A DNA stretch of 7,802 nt from Candidatus Aegiribacteria sp. (GTDB taxonomy: Bacteria; Fermentibacterota; Fermentibacteria; Fermentibacterales; Fermentibacteraceae): NCBI GenBank assembly GCA_030634715.1, contig DAOWAG010000047.1, positions 1 through 7,802 on the forward strand. Direction: 5' to 3'. The translations under genes were made by a program, and so were the position numbers. The first letter of the stretch is position 1. The number at the start of each line of letters is the position of its first letter. The notes under the pieces are model-generated. The model worked only from the letters and a program-made list of their open reading frames with translations. It was not told where the DNA came from and did no database searches. Shown in pieces: positions 2-7,802 of the stretch.

Positions 2-1027
2 ATGCTTAACAAGGAAAGCGGTGTTAAGGGTCTGTCCGGATTAACGAACGATTTCAGAGAGCTTGAAGATGCAGCTGGTGCCGGGAACCGATTGGCTCTC
101 ATGGCGCTTCATGTCTATTGCTACCGCATCAGGAAGTACATAGGTGCATATATAGCTGCAATGGGTGGAGTGGATGTGCTTGTATTCTCAGGCGGAGTCG
201 GTGAATACAGTCCATGGGTGCGTGGTCTTGCATGTCAGGGTCTGGAACAGATAGGTATCTCTGTCGATGATATTAAGAGCAGATCCATTTTGCGCGGTGA
301 AGACAAACTTGTTGACATATCCGGAGAAGACTCGCGGGTGAGGGTTCTTGTGATTCCCACTGACGAAGGACGAATGATAGCAAGGGAGACTATCAGAACG
401 CTCGGATATCATTCCAAGAGCGAGCTGATCCGGAGTTTAGAAGACAGAAATACCCCGATCAGGGTCTCCGATCGTCATGCACATCTCTGCCGTGCCGATG
501 CGGAAGCTCTTTTCGGTAAGGATTCGGAGCTTAGATATCTTCGCACACTTTCTCAACCGGATCAGTATGCAGCCAGGGAAACAGTCGATATTGAAGGTCC
601 GCGCGGGAGCATACAGGGTATTAATGTCTATGGACCATACAGGGAGCACAGCCAGGTGGAAATTTCACAGGCGGATGAAACAATTCTTGGTTTGAAAGCA
701 CCTATCAGGAGATCTGGTGATGTTAAGGGATCTCCAGGAGTACTGCTCACCGGTCCTGCTAGTTCGTGCAGGTTGTCCTGCGGTGTCATTCGTTTTCACA
801 GGCATATTCACATGACACCGGGAGATGCTCTAACCTTCGGCCTTAGGAAAGGCGACCGGGTTATGGTGAAAATCGAAGGAGAGAGAGGTCTGATATTCGA
901 CAACGTCCTGGTTAGAATTGATCCCGATTTCGAACTCTGTATGCACATCGACATCGATGAAGCGAAAGCCGCCGGCATCACAACAGAAAGTACCGGAGAA
1001 CTCCTGGGTATTCACGACCAGAAATAA
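2..1027 (+). CDS. Acetate kinase-PduL phosphotransacylase fusion, C-terminal part (5' truncated by window edge)
   Basis: One uninterrupted frame joins two enzymes of the acetate-forming pathway. Residues 1-135 are the C-terminal third of an acetate kinase: LNKESG near the start, IRKYIGAY at 43-50, the GGVGEYSPWVR nucleotide-site motif at 64-74, and the usual family ending VIPTDEGRMIA at 118-127. After a linker of about 15-20 residues, a PduL-type phosphate acyltransferase (PTAC) domain fills 152-341. It keeps the metal- and phosphate-site residues known for PduL: VSDRHAHL (H159, H161), R214, E220 in QVEIS, RHIHM (H268, H270) and H315 in MHID. Together these would convert acyl-CoA to acyl phosphate, then to acid plus ATP, in the cytosol. 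No microcompartment-targeting peptide is visible, since the PduL part is internal. About 270 N-terminal kinase residues lie off the left edge, and the first ATG is an internal Met. Acetate rather than propionate as substrate is an inference. The domain calls are secure. The TAA stop lies 30 bp from the convergent racemase gene. Confidence 0.93.
   Translation: MLNKESGVKGLSGLTNDFRELEDAAGAGNRLALMALHVYCYRIRKYIGAYIAAMGGVDVLVFSGGVGEYSPWVRGLACQGLEQIGISVDDIKSRSILRGEDKLVDISGEDSRVRVLVIPTDEGRMIARETIRTLGYHSKSELIRSLEDRNTPIRVSDRHAHLCRADAEALFGKDSELRYLRTLSQPDQYAARETVDIEGPRGSIQGINVYGPYREHSQVEISQADETILGLKAPIRRSGDVKGSPGVLLTGPASSCRLSCGVIRFHRHIHMTPGDALTFGLRKGDRVMVKIEGERGLIFDNVLVRIDPDFELCMHIDIDEAKAAGITTESTGELLGIHDQK
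515..1027 (+). repeat. Left arm of 513-bp inverted duplication (PduL domain)
   Basis: This segment matches the complement of 7290-7802 with no insertions or deletions over 513 bp, with about 56 mismatches by hand count (about 89% identity). The inner boundary is sharp: similarity stops at the TAA codon, and the downstream bases are unrelated. The outer boundary lies beyond the right edge for the other arm. Confidence 0.88.
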
Positions 1028-1057: not shown

Positions 1058-2296
1058 TTACAATTTCGGAACAGACATAGAGCCGCTCATCAATACGACG
1101 ATCTTTGAGCTGGCTCCCTTCAGCGTAATTGCCTCTTTAACAGCTTTCTGAAGGTCGGATTTCGGGCTTATGAAGCAGGAACTCAACACATCTTCATCAA
1201 TATCAGTGACTCCCCACATTGAACCTCGGATTGCTATTTCAGCCATTTTGCCTGCTTTGTGCCACCCAAGTTCATAACCTTCACTGAGTTTATTCAGAGT
1301 ATCCTCCGGTGTGTTGCATGAAGCAAGTAATTTGATAAAAGCATCCTCTCCGACTCCCATTCGGCACTTGGAGACAAGGATGAGAATCCCGCCATCCTTC
1401 AAAGCGAGTTTTCCGTTATCAAGAGCTTTCTGGGATTGATAAAGGTCAATATCCATTGGGTAGGGGGCAATACTGATGACAATGTCAGCTTTTCCCGATA
1501 CAGGCACACAATAGATATCATTGGCTTTATCGATGGCTGCGTAAAAACTCCCGTGTATGTGTCCCGCAGTAGCAGCATAGATGCGGTGCTCGCCGTCAAG
1601 GATCGTCATAATGGAAAAGATGGGTTTTTCAGCAATCGTCTTAAGGGCATCAATCATGTCTTCGTGAACCGGATTGCCTTCGAGAGCGAGAGCATGGGAA
1701 TCAGGGCGCAGGGCATACTTATGATTCTGCTCAATTGTCTTGAATGATGCTATCCCGGGAAGGAATGCCTTACGACCGCCTGTATAACCTGCAAAATAAT
1801 GCGGCTCAACTGAACCTATAATGACAATTTCATCCGCCTCAACACCCGCTTTGTTGACGTACATCTCTGTACCGTTTTCGGATGTACCGATATGCACCAT
1901 GTCCTCTTCCCGACGGGCATCATGCATAATTATGTTGTCTTTGACCTCCGGATAAAGGCTACCGAATATCTCCTTCAGTTCGTCTTCCGTGGATGCGCGG
2001 TGAACACCGGTGGCAACAATGAACTTATGCGGTATTTTCTTAAGGTCATTCCAAATGAGCGATAGTACCTTCGCTGTTGGAGTGGGTCTGGTCCCATCAT
2101 TCACGATCACAAGAGTATTACGGCAGTTCTCAACGAAATCAGAAAAGGAAGGGGAATCGATCGGGTTCTCAAGAGCTTCTCTGAGAGTTTTGCCTTCGTC
2201 AACAGCCGGGACTTTATTGGGATGAACCACTTCAGCATCATCTGGTAATTCAAGCGGAATGAAATCATCTTTTCCGTATGGAATATCGATCTTCAT
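1058..2296 (-). CDS. LarA-family nickel-pincer 2-hydroxyacid racemase/epimerase (DUF2088)
   Basis: A full-length 412-residue member of the LarA superfamily, which racemises or epimerises 2-hydroxyacids by hydride transfer to a nickel-pincer nucleotide cofactor. Visible family hallmarks are DGTRPTP at 67-73, ATGVHR with H99 (equivalent to catalytic H108 of Lactiplantibacillus LarA), EPHYFAGYTGGRK at 164-176 with H166 and K176 (H174 and the cofactor-attaching K184), and YQSQKAL at 286-292, the substrate-binding Q/K segment. All these residues are present, so it should be active if the cofactor is made. No larB, larC or larE cofactor gene is in the window. The ATG is supported by a GGGGGA Shine-Dalgarno site 8 nt upstream. 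It starts 24 nt after the aconitase stop, so it is probably the last gene of the citrate synthase-aconitase operon. The substrate cannot be read from sequence. Lactate is the prototype, but family members act on other 2-hydroxyacids such as malate. The name 'lactate racemase' would be over-specific. Confidence 0.87.
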   Translation of the reverse strand: MKIDIPYGKDDFIPLELPDDAEVVHPNKVPAVDEGKTLREALENPIDSPSFSDFVENCRNTLVIVNDGTRPTPTAKVLSLIWNDLKKIPHKFIVATGVHRASTEDELKEIFGSLYPEVKDNIIMHDARREEDMVHIGTSENGTEMYVNKAGVEADEIVIIGSVEPHYFAGYTGGRKAFLPGIASFKTIEQNHKYALRPDSHALALEGNPVHEDMIDALKTIAEKPIFSIMTILDGEHRIYAATAGHIHGSFYAAIDKANDIYCVPVSGKADIVISIAPYPMDIDLYQSQKALDNGKLALKDGGILILVSKCRMGVGEDAFIKLLASCNTPEDTLNKLSEGYELGWHKAGKMAEIAIRGSMWGVTDIDEDVLSSCFISPKSDLQKAVKEAITLKGASSKIVVLMSGSMSVPKL

Positions 2297-2320: not shown

Positions 2321-4255
2321 CTATTTATCCGCTGAGCGGTACCAGTTCAGGAAGCCACCTGCAAGTATCATCTCAATATCACGCTCTGAGAGATCATGGA
2401 TCACCTGGAAACCAGTTCCCAATGTATGATTCTTAACCGTTAGAGGTTTTCTTTCAGAAAGGTTTTCAGTTGGATTTTGAATTTCAAGCTCATATCCGGT
2501 CTCAAGGTTGTCATAGTCAATTCTATTCTCAAAGCAGAGCGGCAATATGCCGAAATTGATCAAATTGGCTGCATGAATTCTTTCAAAGGAAAGAGCAAAC
2601 ACAGCTTTGACCCCGAGGTGCATAGGACAGATAGCCGCATGTTCACGGCTTGAGCCCTGCCCGTAGCTGATGCCGGCAACTATGAAGTTAAATGAACCAC
2701 TTTTTAGATTCTCCCTGCATCGTTCCGGGAATGTCGGATCAACTCCTTCAAAAACGAAATCAGAGTATCTCTCTATGTTAGAGCGATATATAAGCCGCTT
2801 ACCAGCGGGCATGATATGATCGGTGGTGACCTTATCACCGACTTTCAGTAGAACTTCTCCTCTAAGTCGTTCAGGAAGAGGATCGTTGACAGGTGGTGGA
2901 CCGATATTAGGTCCTCTGACCGGCTCGGTTGAGGGGTCATGCTCATCAATGACCATACTGTCATCAAATGCGAAGACATCAGGAATTGATATGGAAGGCC
3001 AGGGTATCCCAAGTGTTCTCGGATCCGTGAACTCTCCGGTTATAGCGGATGCTGCCGCCACTTCAGGACTGACAAGATAAACTTGCGCGCTTGCAGTTCC
3101 TGATCTGCCTTCGAAGTTTCTGTTGGCGGTTCTGAGTGATACGGCATCCGTGTTAGGAGCCATACCGTTGCCGATACAGAATCCACATGTACTCTCTGCA
3201 ACTCGAGCACCTGAAGCGATCAGTGATGCGAGATGACCGGAACCAGCGATCATAGAAAGCACCTGTCTCGAACCCGGACCTATAACGAGACTGGTATTCT
3301 CGCTGACGATTCTACCTCGAAGTATCTCTGCAGCCATAGCCAGGTCCCTGTAAGAAGAATTCGTACATGAACCTATACAAACTTGATCCACATGCATTCC
3401 GGTAAGTTCGGATACAGCCATAACGTTACCCGGTGAGTGGGGAGTTGCTGCCATGGATTCAATTTCAGAAAGGTCAACTTCAATTACCCTGTCATAAACA
3501 CAATCGGAATCAGCCTTCAGCGACTTCCATGCTTCCCCGCGTCCCTGGGCAATTAGAAATTCATGTGTGATCTCATCCGAGGGGAATATCGATGTTGTTG
3601 CACCGGTTTCAGCACCCATGTTCGTGATCGTCGCTCTGTCCTGAGCGGTCAGAGTCGATAAACCGTTTCCAAAATACTCGATTACTGTTCCGACATTTCC
3701 CCTTGTGGAGAGGATGGAAAGAACTTTGAGAATGATATCCTTCGCAGAGACAAAAACCCCCAGTTTCCCGATCAGTCTTATACCTGTCACACTGGGGTAA
3801 GTGATCCAGAAAGGTTCTCCTGCCATCGCACAGGCGACATCGAGACCACCTGCACCCATGGCGAACATACCCATACCGCCTGCAGTGGGTGTATGGCTGT
3901 CTGATCCGAGCAGAGTCTTACCTGGGATTCCGAATCGTTCGAAGTGAACCTGGTGACAGATACCGTTGCCAGGTCTTGAGAATTGAACGCCATACTTTTT
4001 GGCAACTGACTGAAGGTACCTGTGATCATCCGCATTTTCAAACGCGCTCTGCACCATATTATGATCAACATAGGAGATCGACAGTTCTGTTCTGCAGCGA
4101 TCAACTCCCATCGCTTCAAGTTGAAGGAATGCCATTGTACCTGTAGCATCCTGCGTGAGAGTCTGGTCAATTCTTATGGCAACCCTTTCTCCAGGTTCAG
4201 GCTTGCCTTTGACAATGTGTTCTCCAATGATTTTTTCCGCTACTGTGAGTCCCAT
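2321..4255 (-). CDS. acnA: Aconitate hydratase (aconitase), about 644 aa type
   Basis: Interconverts citrate and isocitrate in the cytosol using a [4Fe-4S] cluster. Counting from the chosen start, the N-terminal catalytic region carries GSDSHTPTAGG at 117-127. The cluster cysteines are C297 (in IGSCTNSS) and C357 and C360 (in STCGFCIGNG). The C-terminal swivel domain carries TTDHIMPAG at 477-485 and the SYGQGSSREHA substrate loop at 530-540. All three cluster ligands and the active-site Ser/Arg segment are present. Length is shorter than the roughly 890-residue AcnA/B proteins of enterobacteria and fits the compact bacterial aconitases of about 640-650 residues. I chose the ATG at 4255 rather than the one at 4276 because GGGAGGA lies just upstream of it and the protein then begins MGLTVAEKI as in relatives. 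It lies 75 nt after the citrate synthase stop, across a strong hairpin, and 24 nt before the racemase. Homoaconitase or isopropylmalate isomerase is less likely given the fused swivel domain and the citrate synthase neighbour. The gene symbol is used loosely. Confidence 0.93.
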   Translation of the reverse strand: MGLTVAEKIIGEHIVKGKPEPGERVAIRIDQTLTQDATGTMAFLQLEAMGVDRCRTELSISYVDHNMVQSAFENADDHRYLQSVAKKYGVQFSRPGNGICHQVHFERFGIPGKTLLGSDSHTPTAGGMGMFAMGAGGLDVACAMAGEPFWITYPSVTGIRLIGKLGVFVSAKDIILKVLSILSTRGNVGTVIEYFGNGLSTLTAQDRATITNMGAETGATTSIFPSDEITHEFLIAQGRGEAWKSLKADSDCVYDRVIEVDLSEIESMAATPHSPGNVMAVSELTGMHVDQVCIGSCTNSSYRDLAMAAEILRGRIVSENTSLVIGPGSRQVLSMIAGSGHLASLIASGARVAESTCGFCIGNGMAPNTDAVSLRTANRNFEGRSGTASAQVYLVSPEVAAASAITGEFTDPRTLGIPWPSISIPDVFAFDDSMVIDEHDPSTEPVRGPNIGPPPVNDPLPERLRGEVLLKVGDKVTTDHIMPAGKRLIYRSNIERYSDFVFEGVDPTFPERCRENLKSGSFNFIVAGISYGQGSSREHAAICPMHLGVKAVFALSFERIHAANLINFGILPLCFENRIDYDNLETGYELEIQNPTENLSERKPLTVKNHTLGTGFQVIHDLSERDIEMILAGGFLNWYRSADK

Positions 4256-4282
4256 TCTTCCTCCCGGAAAGTTCATGCATGA

Positions 4283-4308
4283 AGAGCCCCGGCGTGAACC
4301 GGGGCTCT
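4283..4308 (-). other. Perfect 10-bp intercistronic hairpin between citrate synthase and aconitase genes
   Basis: Arms of 10 bp (4283-4292 and 4299-4308, agagccccgg and its exact complement) flank a 6-nt loop. In the leftward transcript it falls after the citrate synthase stop and ends about 27 nt before the aconitase ATG. No U-tract follows it on the transcribed strand, so a plain intrinsic terminator is not well supported. An mRNA-stabilising or processing stem that sets the ratio of the two enzymes, or a partial attenuator, fits better. The hairpin itself is certain from sequence; its role is inferred. Confidence 0.72.
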
Positions 4309-4330
4309 ATAATCACCTCAAAGCAGCCGA

Positions 4331-5611
4331 TCAGCTTTCAGAAATCTGTGCTTTAAGCCAGCCTGTTTCAACAGATTTCGGTCTCGTGATCGGTTCCAAC
4401 ATTGCACGGGAGATTACTGCCTGAGCACACATTCCCATCGATCTGGAAACTGCGAAAAGTACAGTGTAGTATTCGAATTCGCTCATACCATAATGATAGA
4501 GCAATGCTCCGGATCCTGCGTCAACATTGGGCCACGGGCTCTTTGCTTTTCCATGTTCCTTCAGCACACCAGGGACGATTTCATAAAGCTTGTTAACAAG
4601 CTGAAGCACTTCATCTTCCTTGAAGTGTTTCAGACCGAATTCACTGAGTGCGATGAAACGCGGGTCTGTGACCCTGAGAACAGCATGACCGTAGCCAGGG
4701 ATAACTCTTCCTGACTCGAGAGTTTCCCAGCACTCTTCCTTTATCTGCTCATCATCGGGTACTCCGCTGAACCTGTCGAGTATCCAGAGAACAAACTTCA
4801 GGCATTCCTGATTGGCAAGTCCATGAAGTGGTCCTGCAAGACCGTTCAAACCAGCAGAAACGGAATAGTACAGGTCTGAAAGAGCAGAGTTGACCACATG
4901 GCAGGTAAAAGCACTTACATTTCCACCCTCATGGTCACAATGAAGTACAAGGTAGAGCCGCATCATATCCTCGAAGACAGGATCATTTGTACTTAGACCA
5001 AGCATGTGGGCGAAGTTACCGCCCCAGTCAAGTTTGGGATTTCTGGGGATTCGAGGTCCTTTGTTAAATCTCATGCGATAGATACCAGCGGCAATTTCCG
5101 GAAGTCTTGAGAGTAAAATAAGAGCATCTTCAAGAGTTGATTCCCAGTAATTGGGTTTTTTAACGCCTGAATCATACGCTATTTTGAATCTGGATTCCCT
5201 CTGCATGGAGAGAATAGCAAGGTTGAACATTGCCATAGGATGTGAGTTCTTCGGCATTGCTTCAAGGATATTCCAGACATAAGCTGGTACTTCAGCCCTT
5301 TCATTGTATTCCTCCTGCAGTTTGGAGAGAGCTGCTTCATCAGGCAGTTCTCCCGTCATGAGAAGGAAAAATATTTCTTCGGGGATCCTGTCGGTCAGTT
5401 CAAGAATGGGTATTCCGCGGACTATAAGTCCTTTGTCAGGTTCGACGAGTGATGTGTTACAGATAAGACCCTTTACTCCCCGAAGGCCTCCTAATACCTG
5501 CTGGATTTTTACTTCAGAGACTGTTTTATCACCGTGTTCAACAACAAGTTCGCGTAATTCATCTCGCCACTTGGGTATCTTTTCACGAAGAATTTTTCTC
5601 AATCTAGGCAT
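4331..5611 (-). CDS. gltA: Citrate (Si)-synthase, eukaryote-like type
   Basis: Condenses acetyl-CoA and oxaloacetate to citrate, the entry step of the TCA cycle. The 426-residue protein carries the full catalytic triad: H263 in GPLHG, H309 in PGYGHAVLR, and D364 in NVDAGSG. It also has the oxaloacetate-binding region CDHEGGN around 225-231, RVTDPRF after the second histidine, and a C-terminal SRAMLEPITRPKSVE segment with binding arginines. The length, the ITRPKS ending and the residues around the triad resemble mitochondrial citrate synthase and the related Geobacter-type bacterial enzymes more than the hexameric E. coli GltA. It is clearly not Re-citrate synthase. A longer frame begins at a TTG at 5635, but AAGGAGG sits 5 nt before the ATG at 5611 and would lie inside that extension, so 5611 is the start. 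First gene of the leftward operon, probably transcribed from the promoter in the divergent gap. Confidence 0.94.
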   Translation of the reverse strand: MPRLRKILREKIPKWRDELRELVVEHGDKTVSEVKIQQVLGGLRGVKGLICNTSLVEPDKGLIVRGIPILELTDRIPEEIFFLLMTGELPDEAALSKLQEEYNERAEVPAYVWNILEAMPKNSHPMAMFNLAILSMQRESRFKIAYDSGVKKPNYWESTLEDALILLSRLPEIAAGIYRMRFNKGPRIPRNPKLDWGGNFAHMLGLSTNDPVFEDMMRLYLVLHCDHEGGNVSAFTCHVVNSALSDLYYSVSAGLNGLAGPLHGLANQECLKFVLWILDRFSGVPDDEQIKEECWETLESGRVIPGYGHAVLRVTDPRFIALSEFGLKHFKEDEVLQLVNKLYEIVPGVLKEHGKAKSPWPNVDAGSGALLYHYGMSEFEYYTVLFAVSRSMGMCAQAVISRAMLEPITRPKSVETGWLKAQISES

Positions 5612-5658
5612 TTTTTCCTCCTTCCGGTTATTCAAACTCAGTAAATAGCTGCATGTTG

Positions 5659-5687
5659 AAAATATTGATGAATAATCATTAATGCAA
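5659..5687 (-). promoter_or_regulatory. Candidate sigma70-type promoter for citrate synthase operon, with imperfect palindrome
   Basis: On the minus strand TTGCAT (5687-5682) and TATTTT (5664-5659) are exactly 17 nt apart, about 50 nt upstream of the citrate synthase start. The spacer is filled by an imperfect inverted repeat at 5664-5683 (8-bp arms with one mismatch, 4-nt loop ATAA), placed where a repressor would block polymerase. Match to consensus is moderate and the regulator is unknown. Confidence 0.42.
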
Positions 5688-5721
5688 GTTCCGTTTATCC
5701 TGATGTTTGGCGATGTTGAAT

Positions 5722-5750
5722 TTGTTAGTGGTTTCCAGAAAAATTATTGT
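5722..5750 (+). promoter_or_regulatory. Candidate sigma70-type promoter for isocitrate dehydrogenase gene
   Basis: TTGTTA (5722-5727) and TATTGT (5745-5750) are 17 nt apart on the plus strand. If real, the transcript begins near 5757 and has a 5' leader of about 145 nt before the GTG start. This leader would cover most of the in-frame upstream extension, which argues against that extension being translated. Based on consensus match only. Confidence 0.38.
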
Positions 5751-5902
5751 ATTCTTTCGAGACTCAGATCTGGACAACATTTAATAAGCTGGTGAAAGAT
5801 GCAGATTCGTCGTATTGGATAATACTGAACTCATCAATTGCAAATAAGAAACCTTTAGCGATATATTTAACTTTCATCATTCAGAGAGCAAGGAGGTCCA
5901 GA

Positions 5903-7246
5903 GTGTCGGAATTTAAAATAGTGAATATTCCAGAAGGTGATCTGATAGAGATCAAGAACGGTACACCGGTCATCGGTGATCATCCAGTCATCGGGTATCT
6001 CCGGGGTGATGGCATTGGTCTGGATATTACACCAGTTATGCAGAATGTTGTTGATAAGGCGGTGAATAAAGCCTATGCTGGAACAAGGAAGATTGCCTGG
6101 TGTCCGCTGTATGCAGGCCTGCAGGGACTTCAACACTATGGAAGTGAATTTCCGGATGAGACAGTGGAAGCCATTAGACATCTGAAGATTGCCATAAAAG
6201 GTCCCTACACAACTCCGATAGGTGAAGAAACTCATGTTTGTCTGTATTGCGCTCACCAGCAGTATCATCCTGGAAAATGTGATAAATGCAGAAAAGATGA
6301 TGGTGTCTGCGAGCGGTTCCGTTCTATTAATGTTCGATTTCGCCAGTATCTTGATCTTTTTGCATGCGTCCGTCCGGTTAGATACTTCAAAGGTGTACCA
6401 TCTCCGAACAAGTACGCAGATAAAGTTGATTTCATGATTTTCCGCGAGAACACCGAAGATGTTTATGCAGGGTTTGATTTTGAACGTGGCAGTGATACCG
6501 CACTTGCGATAATTGAACTTATTAAAGAAAAGACGGGCAGGCAAATTCGTACTGATTCCGGTATCGGTGTGAAACCAATCTCCGTCTTCGGTACAGAAAG
6601 GCTTGTACGGAAAGCTATACAATGGGCAGTTGACCATGATCTTCCATCGGTCACTCTGGTCCATAAGGGCAATATCATGAAATTTACGGAAGGTTCGTTC
6701 TGCAAATGGGGTTATGAACTCGCAAAGAGGGAATTCGGTGATGTTACCATTACTGAAAAAGAACTCTGGGATGAATTCGATGGTAGGATGCCCGAAGGAA
6801 ATATCCTGATAAAGGACAGGATTGCCGATTCAATCTTCCAGCAGATCCAGATCCGTCCGGAGGATTATTCTGTTCTTGCTCTTCCGAACCTGAATGGTGA
6901 CTATCTTTCCGATGCAGCAATCGCTCTTGTAGGCGGATTAGGACTTGGCCCGGGAGCGAATATGTCGGATGATATCGCTCTTTTTGAAGCTACTCATGGG
7001 ACTGCACCAAAATACACGGGCATGGATAAGGTCAATCCCGGTTCATTGCTGTTATCAGCAGTTATGATGCTTGAGTATATGGGCTGGGGAGAAGCTGCGA
7101 AGATGATAAAGCACGGAATGGAGAGATCAATAATAGACGGTTTTGTTACATACGATCTGGCTCGACTGATGACTAGAGAAGGCAGAGAGGATGTCACCGA
7201 GGTATCCTGTTCAGGCTTCGGCAATTCCATTATTGAGCGTATGTAA
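5903..7246 (+). CDS. icd: NADP-type isocitrate dehydrogenase with cysteine-rich insert
   Basis: Oxidatively decarboxylates isocitrate to 2-oxoglutarate. The 447-residue protein aligns along its length with E. coli Icd (416 residues). Isocitrate-site residues are kept: S141, N143, R147, R157, R181, Y188 and K255 (E. coli S113, N115, R119, R129, R153, Y160, K230), with metal ligands D333 and D337 in NLNGDYLSD. The cofactor determinants K370, Y371, Y417 and R421 match E. coli K344, Y345, Y391 and R395, so NADP+ is predicted. The extra length is almost wholly one insert at about 108-139, between GPYTTPIG and RSINVRFRQ. It carries C113, C116, C126, C129 and C136 (C-x2-C-x9-C-x2-C-x6-C) plus three histidines, suggesting a zinc or redox-sensitive element. 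The start is the GTG at 5903, because AGGAGG lies 6 nt before it and E. coli-like sequence begins shortly after. An open extension back to 5747 is rejected. Divergent from the citrate synthase operon. Confidence 0.94.
   Translation: MSEFKIVNIPEGDLIEIKNGTPVIGDHPVIGYLRGDGIGLDITPVMQNVVDKAVNKAYAGTRKIAWCPLYAGLQGLQHYGSEFPDETVEAIRHLKIAIKGPYTTPIGEETHVCLYCAHQQYHPGKCDKCRKDDGVCERFRSINVRFRQYLDLFACVRPVRYFKGVPSPNKYADKVDFMIFRENTEDVYAGFDFERGSDTALAIIELIKEKTGRQIRTDSGIGVKPISVFGTERLVRKAIQWAVDHDLPSVTLVHKGNIMKFTEGSFCKWGYELAKREFGDVTITEKELWDEFDGRMPEGNILIKDRIADSIFQQIQIRPEDYSVLALPNLNGDYLSDAAIALVGGLGLGPGANMSDDIALFEATHGTAPKYTGMDKVNPGSLLLSAVMMLEYMGWGEAAKMIKHGMERSIIDGFVTYDLARLMTREGREDVTEVSCSGFGNSIIERM
6224..6319 (+). other. 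Cysteine-rich insert in isocitrate dehydrogenase (residues 108-139)
   Basis: About 32 codons replace the 3 residues (GGI) that link the same flanking motifs in E. coli Icd. It has two CxxC pairs (CLYC, CDKC), a fifth cysteine and histidines at 111, 118 and 122, a zinc-ribbon-like pattern. The insert is in frame and the flanking catalytic residues are intact, so it is a genuine part of the protein rather than damage. Metal binding is inferred from the spacing alone. Confidence 0.75.
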
Positions 7247-7252
7247 AGCAGC

Positions 7253-7284
7253 AAAAGGGGTCAGGTCTTGCAAGACCCAACCCC
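7253..7284 (-). terminator. Hairpin terminator for second PduL gene, also REP-like palindrome
   Basis: A near-perfect palindrome at 7257-7284: ggggt and acccc arms outside, a 2-nt mismatch, then ggtcttg/caagacc arms inside. On the minus strand it begins 5 nt after the PduL stop and is followed by TTTT (7256-7253), as in an intrinsic terminator. On the plus strand it follows the icd stop by 10 nt but lacks a T-run directly after. From memory, CAAGACCTGACCCC-type ends are like REP palindromes linked to REP-associated tyrosine transposases in many bacteria, so it may be a dispersed element serving as a terminator. No transposase is present here. Confidence 0.6.
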
Positions 7285-7289
7285 AAAGT

Positions 7290-7802
7290 TTATTTCTGGT
7301 CGTGAACGCCCAGGAGTTCTCCGGTGCTTTCTGTTGTAATGTCAGCGGCTTTCGCTTCATCGACATCGATGTGCATACAGAGTTCAAAATCGGGATCAAT
7401 TCTAACGAGAACATTATCGAATATCAGACCTCTATCTCCTTCGATTTTCACCATGACGCGGTCGCTATTCTTCAGGCCGAAGGTAAGCGCATCTCCGGGC
7501 GTCATGTGAATATGCCTGTGAAAACGAATAACACCGCAGGACAACCTGCACGAACCGGCAGGACCCCTCAGCAGTACTCCTGGAGAACCCTTAACATCAC
7601 CAGATCTTCTGATGGGTGCTTTCAAACCAAGAATTGTTTCATCCGCATGTGAAATTTCCACCTGGCTCTGCTCCCTGTATGGTCCATAGACATTAATATC
7701 CCGCATGACCCCGCGCGGACCTTCAATATCAACTGTCTCCTTAGCTGCAAACAGATACGGTTGAGAAAGTGCGCGAACATGTGTTAGTTTCGAGCCCTTA
7801 CC
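7290..7802 (-). CDS. Second PduL-type phosphotransacylase domain (5' truncated by window edge)
   Basis: The minus-strand frame is open from the right edge (codon GGT at 7802-7800) to TAA at 7290, giving 170 residues that correspond to residues 172-341 of the fusion protein at the left edge. By hand count 25 of 170 residues differ and no gaps are needed. The kept PduL residues include LSQP and GPRG near its start, GPYR and QVEIS (phosphate Arg and metal Glu), RHIHM (two His) and MHID (His). The first metal motif, RHAHL in the left copy, would be just beyond the window. An ATG at 7706 is not the start, because homology continues upstream of it to the edge with family-typical sequence. Whether this copy is also fused to acetate kinase or stands alone cannot be seen. 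It is convergent with icd, and the stops are 43 bp apart. Confidence 0.88.
   Translation of the reverse strand, partial: GKGSKLTHVRALSQPYLFAAKETVDIEGPRGVMRDINVYGPYREQSQVEISHADETILGLKAPIRRSGDVKGSPGVLLRGPAGSCRLSCGVIRFHRHIHMTPGDALTFGLKNSDRVMVKIEGDRGLIFDNVLVRIDPDFELCMHIDVDEAKAADITTESTGELLGVHDQK
7290..7802 (-). repeat. Right arm of 513-bp inverted duplication (PduL domain)
   Basis: Inverted counterpart of 515-1027, continuing past the window edge. Identity is uneven: about 91% over the last 411 bp and about 80% over the 102 bp nearest the edge. The arms bracket the racemase, aconitase, citrate synthase and isocitrate dehydrogenase genes, about 6.3 kb in all. Confidence 0.88.

Follow-up and report, generated by a model that had tools for sequence, protein, structure and literature searches.

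An acetate kinase-PduL fusion gene of Candidatus Aegiribacteria, most likely the tail of a CNB-fronted enzyme that may be gated by a small ligand

We analyzed a 7,802-nt stretch of DNA from Candidatus Aegiribacteria sp. (contig DAOWAG010000047.1), referred to here as the window, whose left end carries the last part of a gene for an acetate kinase (AckA) fused to a PduL-type phosphotransacylase (Table 1). The open reading frame at 2..1027 (+) is a single frame of 341 aa with zero internal stops, and it encodes, in order, the C-terminal 128 residues of AckA, 23 linker residues and a complete PduL domain. In Pfam, profile positions 265-392 of PF00871 match fusion residues 1-128 (117.9 bits, cut-off 22), and profile positions 1-175 of 176 of PF06130 (PTAC) match residues 152-326 (223.5 bits, cut-off 25). 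About two-thirds of AckA lies beyond the left window edge; structure alignment of the AckA part brings in 1g99 and 1tuu (Methanosarcina) and 2iir (Thermotoga) from their residue 266-267, starting at window residue 1, and the second part of the fusion aligns with Rhodopseudomonas palustris PduL (5cuo). A second pduL copy lies at the right end of the window, such that the two copies form an inverted repeat around larA and the genes for aconitase, citrate synthase and isocitrate dehydrogenase (icd), and the contig ends inside the right copy. Over 515-1027 and 7290-7802 the copies differ at 56 of 513 nt, distributed 10/11/35 over the three codon positions, with a dN/dS of ~0.24 (NG86) or 0.28 (YN00). 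This codon-position pattern and the low ratio fit maintenance of both copies as coding sequence.

Table 1. Features of the fusion gene and its surroundings in the window.
Feature	Position	Strand	Basis or remark
AckA, C-terminal 128 residues	2..385	+	PF00871 265-392; gene continues past left window edge
AckA-PduL linker, 23 residues	386..454	+	Gap between both Pfam stretches
PduL-type phosphotransacylase domain	455..979	+	PF06130 1-175; residue mapping to 5cuo
Stop codon of fusion gene	1025..1027	+	ORF reading
LarA-type nickel-dependent racemase gene	1058..2296	-	Lar_N, LarA_C; convergent with fusion gene
Second pduL copy, cut by right edge	7290..7802	-	PF06130 21-175; 89% complementary to 515-1027

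An earlier note on this DNA had claimed that AckA is fused to PduL in one polypeptide, and the open frame without a stop, together with two Pfam domains over cut-off, bears this out. The same note had named a sequencing error or frameshift at the junction as a possible undoing of the claim. Such an error is ruled out by the relatives: when the window protein was used as the query, 113 of the 120 matches listed carried both Pfam domains and 7 carried PF06130 alone. This search accepted proteins of up to 1.75 times the query length, which places the triple fusions described below outside its scope, and many of its matches come from short metagenome contigs. The stretch that matches the window is exactly 341 aa long in 27 of 47 excised relatives, and a relative from Candidatus Aminicenantes (L001) likewise has 23 residues (561-583) between AckA and PduL. 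Judged by the shared domain pair and the matching length of the stretch, the junction is genuine and free of local sequencing error.

Both enzyme halves of the fusion look active, since the relevant AckA and PduL residues are kept across an alignment of 139 rows; one of these (L034, part of a malic enzyme gene) is in the wrong frame and contributes gaps or odd letters. The metal and phosphate residues that had been read in the PduL half are indeed all there: mapped to 5cuo, the window keeps the six Zn ligands (H48, H50, E109, H157, H159, and H204) and the equivalents of Arg103 and Ser127. The roles of the ligands, of Arg103 (phosphate) and of Ser127 are those given by Erbilgin et al. (2016; PMC4784909). 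Each ligand position differs in no more than one of the rows that have a letter there. In the AckA part of the window, the equivalents of 1tuu D283, R285, G331, and E384 are present, and the equivalent of N335 is Tyr, with Gly in 126 rows of the alignment. Six further 1tuu positions fall beyond the window edge; among relatives with a letter there, N7 is kept in 126/126 rows, R91 in 129/130, H123 in 131/132, D148 in 132/132, H180 in 133/133, and R241 in 134/135, and E384 is replaced in at most one of the rows that cover it. We take these AckA positions mapped from 1tuu to be catalytic residues.

Full-length relatives of the fusion carry a CNB domain in front of AckA. The L001 protein has 773 residues, with CNB at 32-115, AckA at 169-560 and PduL at 584-758. 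When it was used as the query, PF00027, PF00871, and PF06130 were found together in 120 of the 120 matches listed, of which 106 were exactly 773 aa long. Its AF2 model (pLDDT 87.4, pTM 0.86) resembles solved structures of AckA, PduL and CNB proteins, and its sequence shares 43-52% identity with the five first-listed solved AckA entries and 43% with R. palustris PduL. The mean share of the majority residue is 0.78 in the CNB region, 0.82 in AckA, and 0.86 in PduL. The full kinase N-terminus that the earlier note expected upstream is seen in relatives, where AckA is complete (PF00871 1-392 of 392 in L001; 2-392 in L042), the window itself being cut off. Two-domain AckA-PduL proteins of ~590 aa exist apart from the triple fusions.

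Mapping the architecture onto taxa, as the earlier note had proposed, showed AckA and PduL in one chain in many relatives, with the CNB-AckA-PduL family in at least three phyla. In the phylum of genome G002, which holds the nearest kin of the window, a CNB-AckA gene occurs in only 4 of 42 genomes: that of G043 (the same phylum as L002, below) is a whole CNB-AckA-PduL of 773 aa, those of G002 and G025 are cut by contig ends, and that of G008 lacks PduL; PduL was detected in 1 of the 42. Nine of 142 genomes of G001's class match at E <= 1e-130. At least 5 of 396 genomes match in G001's phylum, with G001 and G643 aligning over the whole query, and at least 5 of 398 in G185's phylum reach E <= 1e-100 with the two-domain query, at least three of them spanning both enzyme domains; these phylum counts are lower bounds, at most two and three candidates per genome, respectively, having been scored. 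One of the three spanning matches, in G478, is a triple fusion. Restriction of the fusion to the lineage of the window is ruled out by the matches in these three phyla. PF00871 has a single match, the fusion, in the assembled sequence of G478 and of each of the 10 genomes of G001's phylum in which a triple fusion was detected; the fusion lies on a contig of 4.43 million bases in G046 and of 4.35 million bases in G047. G002 has a second, separate AckA besides the fusion, and further weak partial PF00871 matches occur in G043, G002, and G008.

The G008 gene (L013 1495-3192) encodes CNB-AckA without PduL and has a worn phosphate cassette, which indicates that the parts of the triple fusion are separable. 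In a tree of AckA domains (64 rows; a motif and length filter removed the stand-alone AckAs of L003-L007), 29 triple fusions share one side of a branch with G008 (100/99), which in turn groups with the pair of triple-type rows from its phylum (100/98). Its position among triple-type rows suggests that PduL was lost in the G008 lineage, the direction of change being read from a midpoint root.

Five of the 10 genomes detected with a triple fusion in G001's phylum (G001, G046, G047, G049, and G071, the last with its fusion cut at a contig edge so that only the tail of the CNB part is visible) have a class III cyclase gene next to the fusion; these five genomes are related and do not count as independent. 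The cyclase faces the fusion in three of them and runs in the same direction in two, with a gap of 3 nt in G047. Four of the cyclases are whole and have FHA and GAF domains, and that of G049, cut by the contig end, shows GAF and the cyclase domain. All are over the PF00211 cut-off, and the metal Asp pair and the Lys, Thr, Asn, and Arg positions are identical in 5/5 to those of CyaB 3r5g, the solved structure that one of them matches best; these positions presumably have the same catalytic roles. Each of these genomes has one to three PF00211 matches, the neighbor in G046 being the sole match of its genome. No cyclase lies beside the fusion in the other five (G050, G080, G153, G154, and G643), nor among the neighbors of the G043 fusion (L042), and G080 has zero PF00211 matches in its genome. 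In L002 and L042, both of the Aegiribacteria phylum, the upstream gene instead encodes a malic enzyme that carries a PTA_PTB domain; G154 likewise has a gene for malic enzyme near its fusion. As a separate observation, G046 encodes a 121-residue single-CNB protein just before its cyclase (L044 2776-3141), whose cassette has Arg (LRSANV).

Since the CNB domain itself would lie outside the window, the type to which the window's gene belongs has to be judged from its relatives. In a tree of the 341-residue stretch (49 rows), the two copies of the window, two metagenome fragments and G043 form one set (100/100) among CNB-bearing rows, and the 14 two-domain rows cluster apart from them (100/99). 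Furthermore, a contig end from Candidatus Aegiribacteria (L002) matches positions 1-143 of the window with 97% identity over 143 nt, and this contig codes for CNB-AckA up to the point where it breaks off. On the basis of this placement and the contig end, a CNB domain is expected in the window's gene, which most likely belongs to the CNB-AckA-PduL type of ~773 residues, the last 341 of which are in the window. It could be argued instead that the gene encodes a plain AckA-PduL protein of ~590 aa with no CNB, like the fusion type already in print. The window shows AckA and PduL alone, the length limit of the window-protein search kept triple fusions out of its listing, G882 has a 589-aa protein with AckA and PduL and no CNB match, and the AckA N-terminus opens 25 of the 28 printed proteins longer than 560 aa among P0084-P0121 (GSSS within the first 20 residues, by eye). 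However, the separation of the two-domain rows from the set that holds the window and CNB-bearing G043, and the near-identical contig end, disfavor this reading, and we consider it very unlikely. A different doubt concerns the contig, as the window may be a real rearrangement or a chimera that joins the fusion-larA part of one genome to the aconitase-citrate synthase-icd part of another. DNA identity of the latter block (2337-7244) is 94% to G020, 90% to G024, and 76-92% to G014, G018, and G021. By eye, larA, the fusion and pduL are absent from the visible flanks of the block (aconitase side in G014 and G021; icd side in G014, G018, G020, and G021), and those genomes gave no PF06130 match. In addition, the block has no DNA match in G002, the genome that matches the window at its fusion end, and the right contig end falls inside a repeat of the left part. 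On the other hand, GC content is alike across the parts (0.47, 0.46, and 0.49), and larA recurs with the CNB-AckA gene in G008 (L013; adjoining by eye, placed downstream and on the opposite strand like that of the window) and near the fusion in G043 (L042; Pfam). A chimera is thus quite unlikely in our view, and the fusion claim stands either way, since the suspect junction lies outside the fusion ORF.

Returning to the CNB-AckA-PduL type, the ligand of its CNB domain is a second matter on which readings differ. The relatives share with PKA/PKG regulatory domains, CRP and CNG channels the CNB fold, PF00027 over cut-off and the cassette Gly-Glu, but their output is a metabolic kinase and their cassette Arg is nearly always Thr. 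Indeed, the phosphate-cassette Arg of canonical cAMP receptors (Arg209 of PKA RI-alpha) is not kept: among 126 rows this position is Thr in 120, Ser in 5, and Arg in 1. Its replacement in 125 of 126 rows disfavors ordinary cAMP binding, so that the CNB domain of the relatives might sense cAMP in an unusual way or respond to a different ligand. A candidate stand-in for the lost Arg is CNB position 48 (Arg in 106 of 126 rows, Lys in 7, Gln in 6, Ser in 4, and single others). A search for stand-alone CNB domains yielded 21 short proteins. Several of these continue into the start of AckA and are apparently N-terminal fragments of the fusions themselves, so that the search supplies no outside yardstick for the loss. 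The missing phosphate Arg and the worn cassette of G008 could be taken to mean that the fold persists as a dimerization or spacer domain with ligand sensing lost. This is unlikely given that the altered cassette is tightly kept (G in 126, E in 125, and T in 120 of 126 rows), that majority-residue conservation in the CNB region comes close to that of the two enzyme domains, and that a cyclase gene is a recurrent neighbor. Somewhat less doubtful, if still on the unlikely side, is that the domain binds a nucleoside or other non-cyclic metabolite, tying acetate formation to that metabolite and not to cAMP. The precedent is the PKA regulatory subunit (PKAR) of trypanosomatids; that of Trypanosoma brucei is described as nucleoside-regulated and cAMP-independent, with T318 at the cassette position (PMC10959531), to which the Thr of the relatives is equivalent, and the top-ranked Foldseek CNB chain for the L001 model is T. 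cruzi PKAR with inosine. In the mutants reported there, however, changing positions 318/442 to Arg left the inosine response without significant change and Glu 311/435 mattered most (PMC10959531), so that Thr by itself hardly matters for inosine, which weakens the nucleoside reading. At this ribose-binding position the relatives have Ser (123 of 126 rows; Ala in 2, Pro in 1; column 85), not Glu, and their output domain is unrelated. Moreover, the Foldseek E-values are nearly equal (3.7e-10 inosine-bound vs. 7.0e-10 cAMP-bound), VIA-align puts cGMP- and cAMP-bound chains first, and the adjoining cyclase favors a cyclic nucleotide.

Taken together, we favor, with somewhat better than even confidence, a one-chain converter of acetyl-CoA to acetate that is fronted by a CNB domain and gated by a small ligand. 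Counting against this reading are the replaced cassette Arg, the separability seen in G008, the five of 10 fusions with no cyclase beside them, and the small share of CNB-AckA genes (4 of 42 genomes) in the phylum of the nearest kin. A single chain would convert acetyl-CoA, Pi, and ADP to acetate, CoA, and ATP, or the reverse, with PduL making acetyl phosphate and AckA consuming it. Acetyl phosphate might be handed on within the chain or oligomer, and the N-terminal CNB fold would control the enzyme allosterically upon binding a small ligand, conceivably a cyclic nucleotide or other nucleotide-like molecule. The CNB domain in the window's own gene, its gating, the type of ligand and the transfer of acetyl phosphate are what we infer from sequence; likewise, channeling, a fixed ratio of the two activities and low leakage of acetyl phosphate, as the earlier note proposed, would be plausible consequences of the fusion. 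More tentatively, and a little short of an even bet, CNB-AckA-PduL may, in this family of at least three phyla, be the only acetate kinase of the cell, with conversion of acetyl-CoA to acetate and ATP switched by a second messenger through the Arg-to-Thr cassette and, in several genomes, with the cyclase next door.

Acetate kinase and phosphotransacylase are a main ATP source in fermenting bacteria and set the level of acetyl phosphate. Relative to the pathway of separate AckA and Pta or PduL, the two reactions are the same, but here they are joined in one polypeptide, to which full-length relatives add an N-terminal CNB fold. If the proposal is true, both enzymes and a ligand-sensing domain in one chain would allow an energy step to be controlled at the enzyme by a small signaling molecule, for which the adjoining cyclase suggests an input to the CNB-bearing enzyme, and this control could be addressed with one purified protein. 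The earlier note had left room for the AckA-PduL architecture being undescribed; the one-chain arrangement stands, but its novelty does not, because PF06130 is already reported in multidomain proteins mostly annotated as Acks, with substrate channeling suggested (Erbilgin et al., 2016; PMC4784909). Those fusions likewise have PF06130 and acetate kinase in one open frame, whereas a CNB domain and a cyclase neighbor go unmentioned in the sections of that paper drawn on here. Similarly, none of the 30 CNB families tabulated by Kannan et al. (2007; PMC2246266; Table 1) is described as acetate kinase, with unspecified kinases in the Other_bacterial row. We found no description of a CNB-acetate kinase fusion in the open-access literature, judged mostly by titles and opening lines of abstracts, which does not in itself prove absence; one paper that did surface concerns CRP acetylation in mycobacteria; as far as that search reaches, the CNB-bearing and partly cyclase-neighbored version is undescribed.

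Two minor features of the window lie toward its right end. The isocitrate dehydrogenase (5903-7246, +) has a Cys-rich insert of ~30 residues (HVCLYCAHQQYHPGKCDKCRKDDGVC) that looks like a small metal-binding loop and is lacking in the enzyme of G043; the icd genes of G014, G018, G020, and G021 are 88-96% identical over nearly their whole length. Between icd and the second pduL lies a palindrome, GGGGTCAGGTCTTGCAAGACCCAACCCC, at 7257-7284, which when folded as DNA gave z = -2.25, with 8 of 200 shuffles folding as well.
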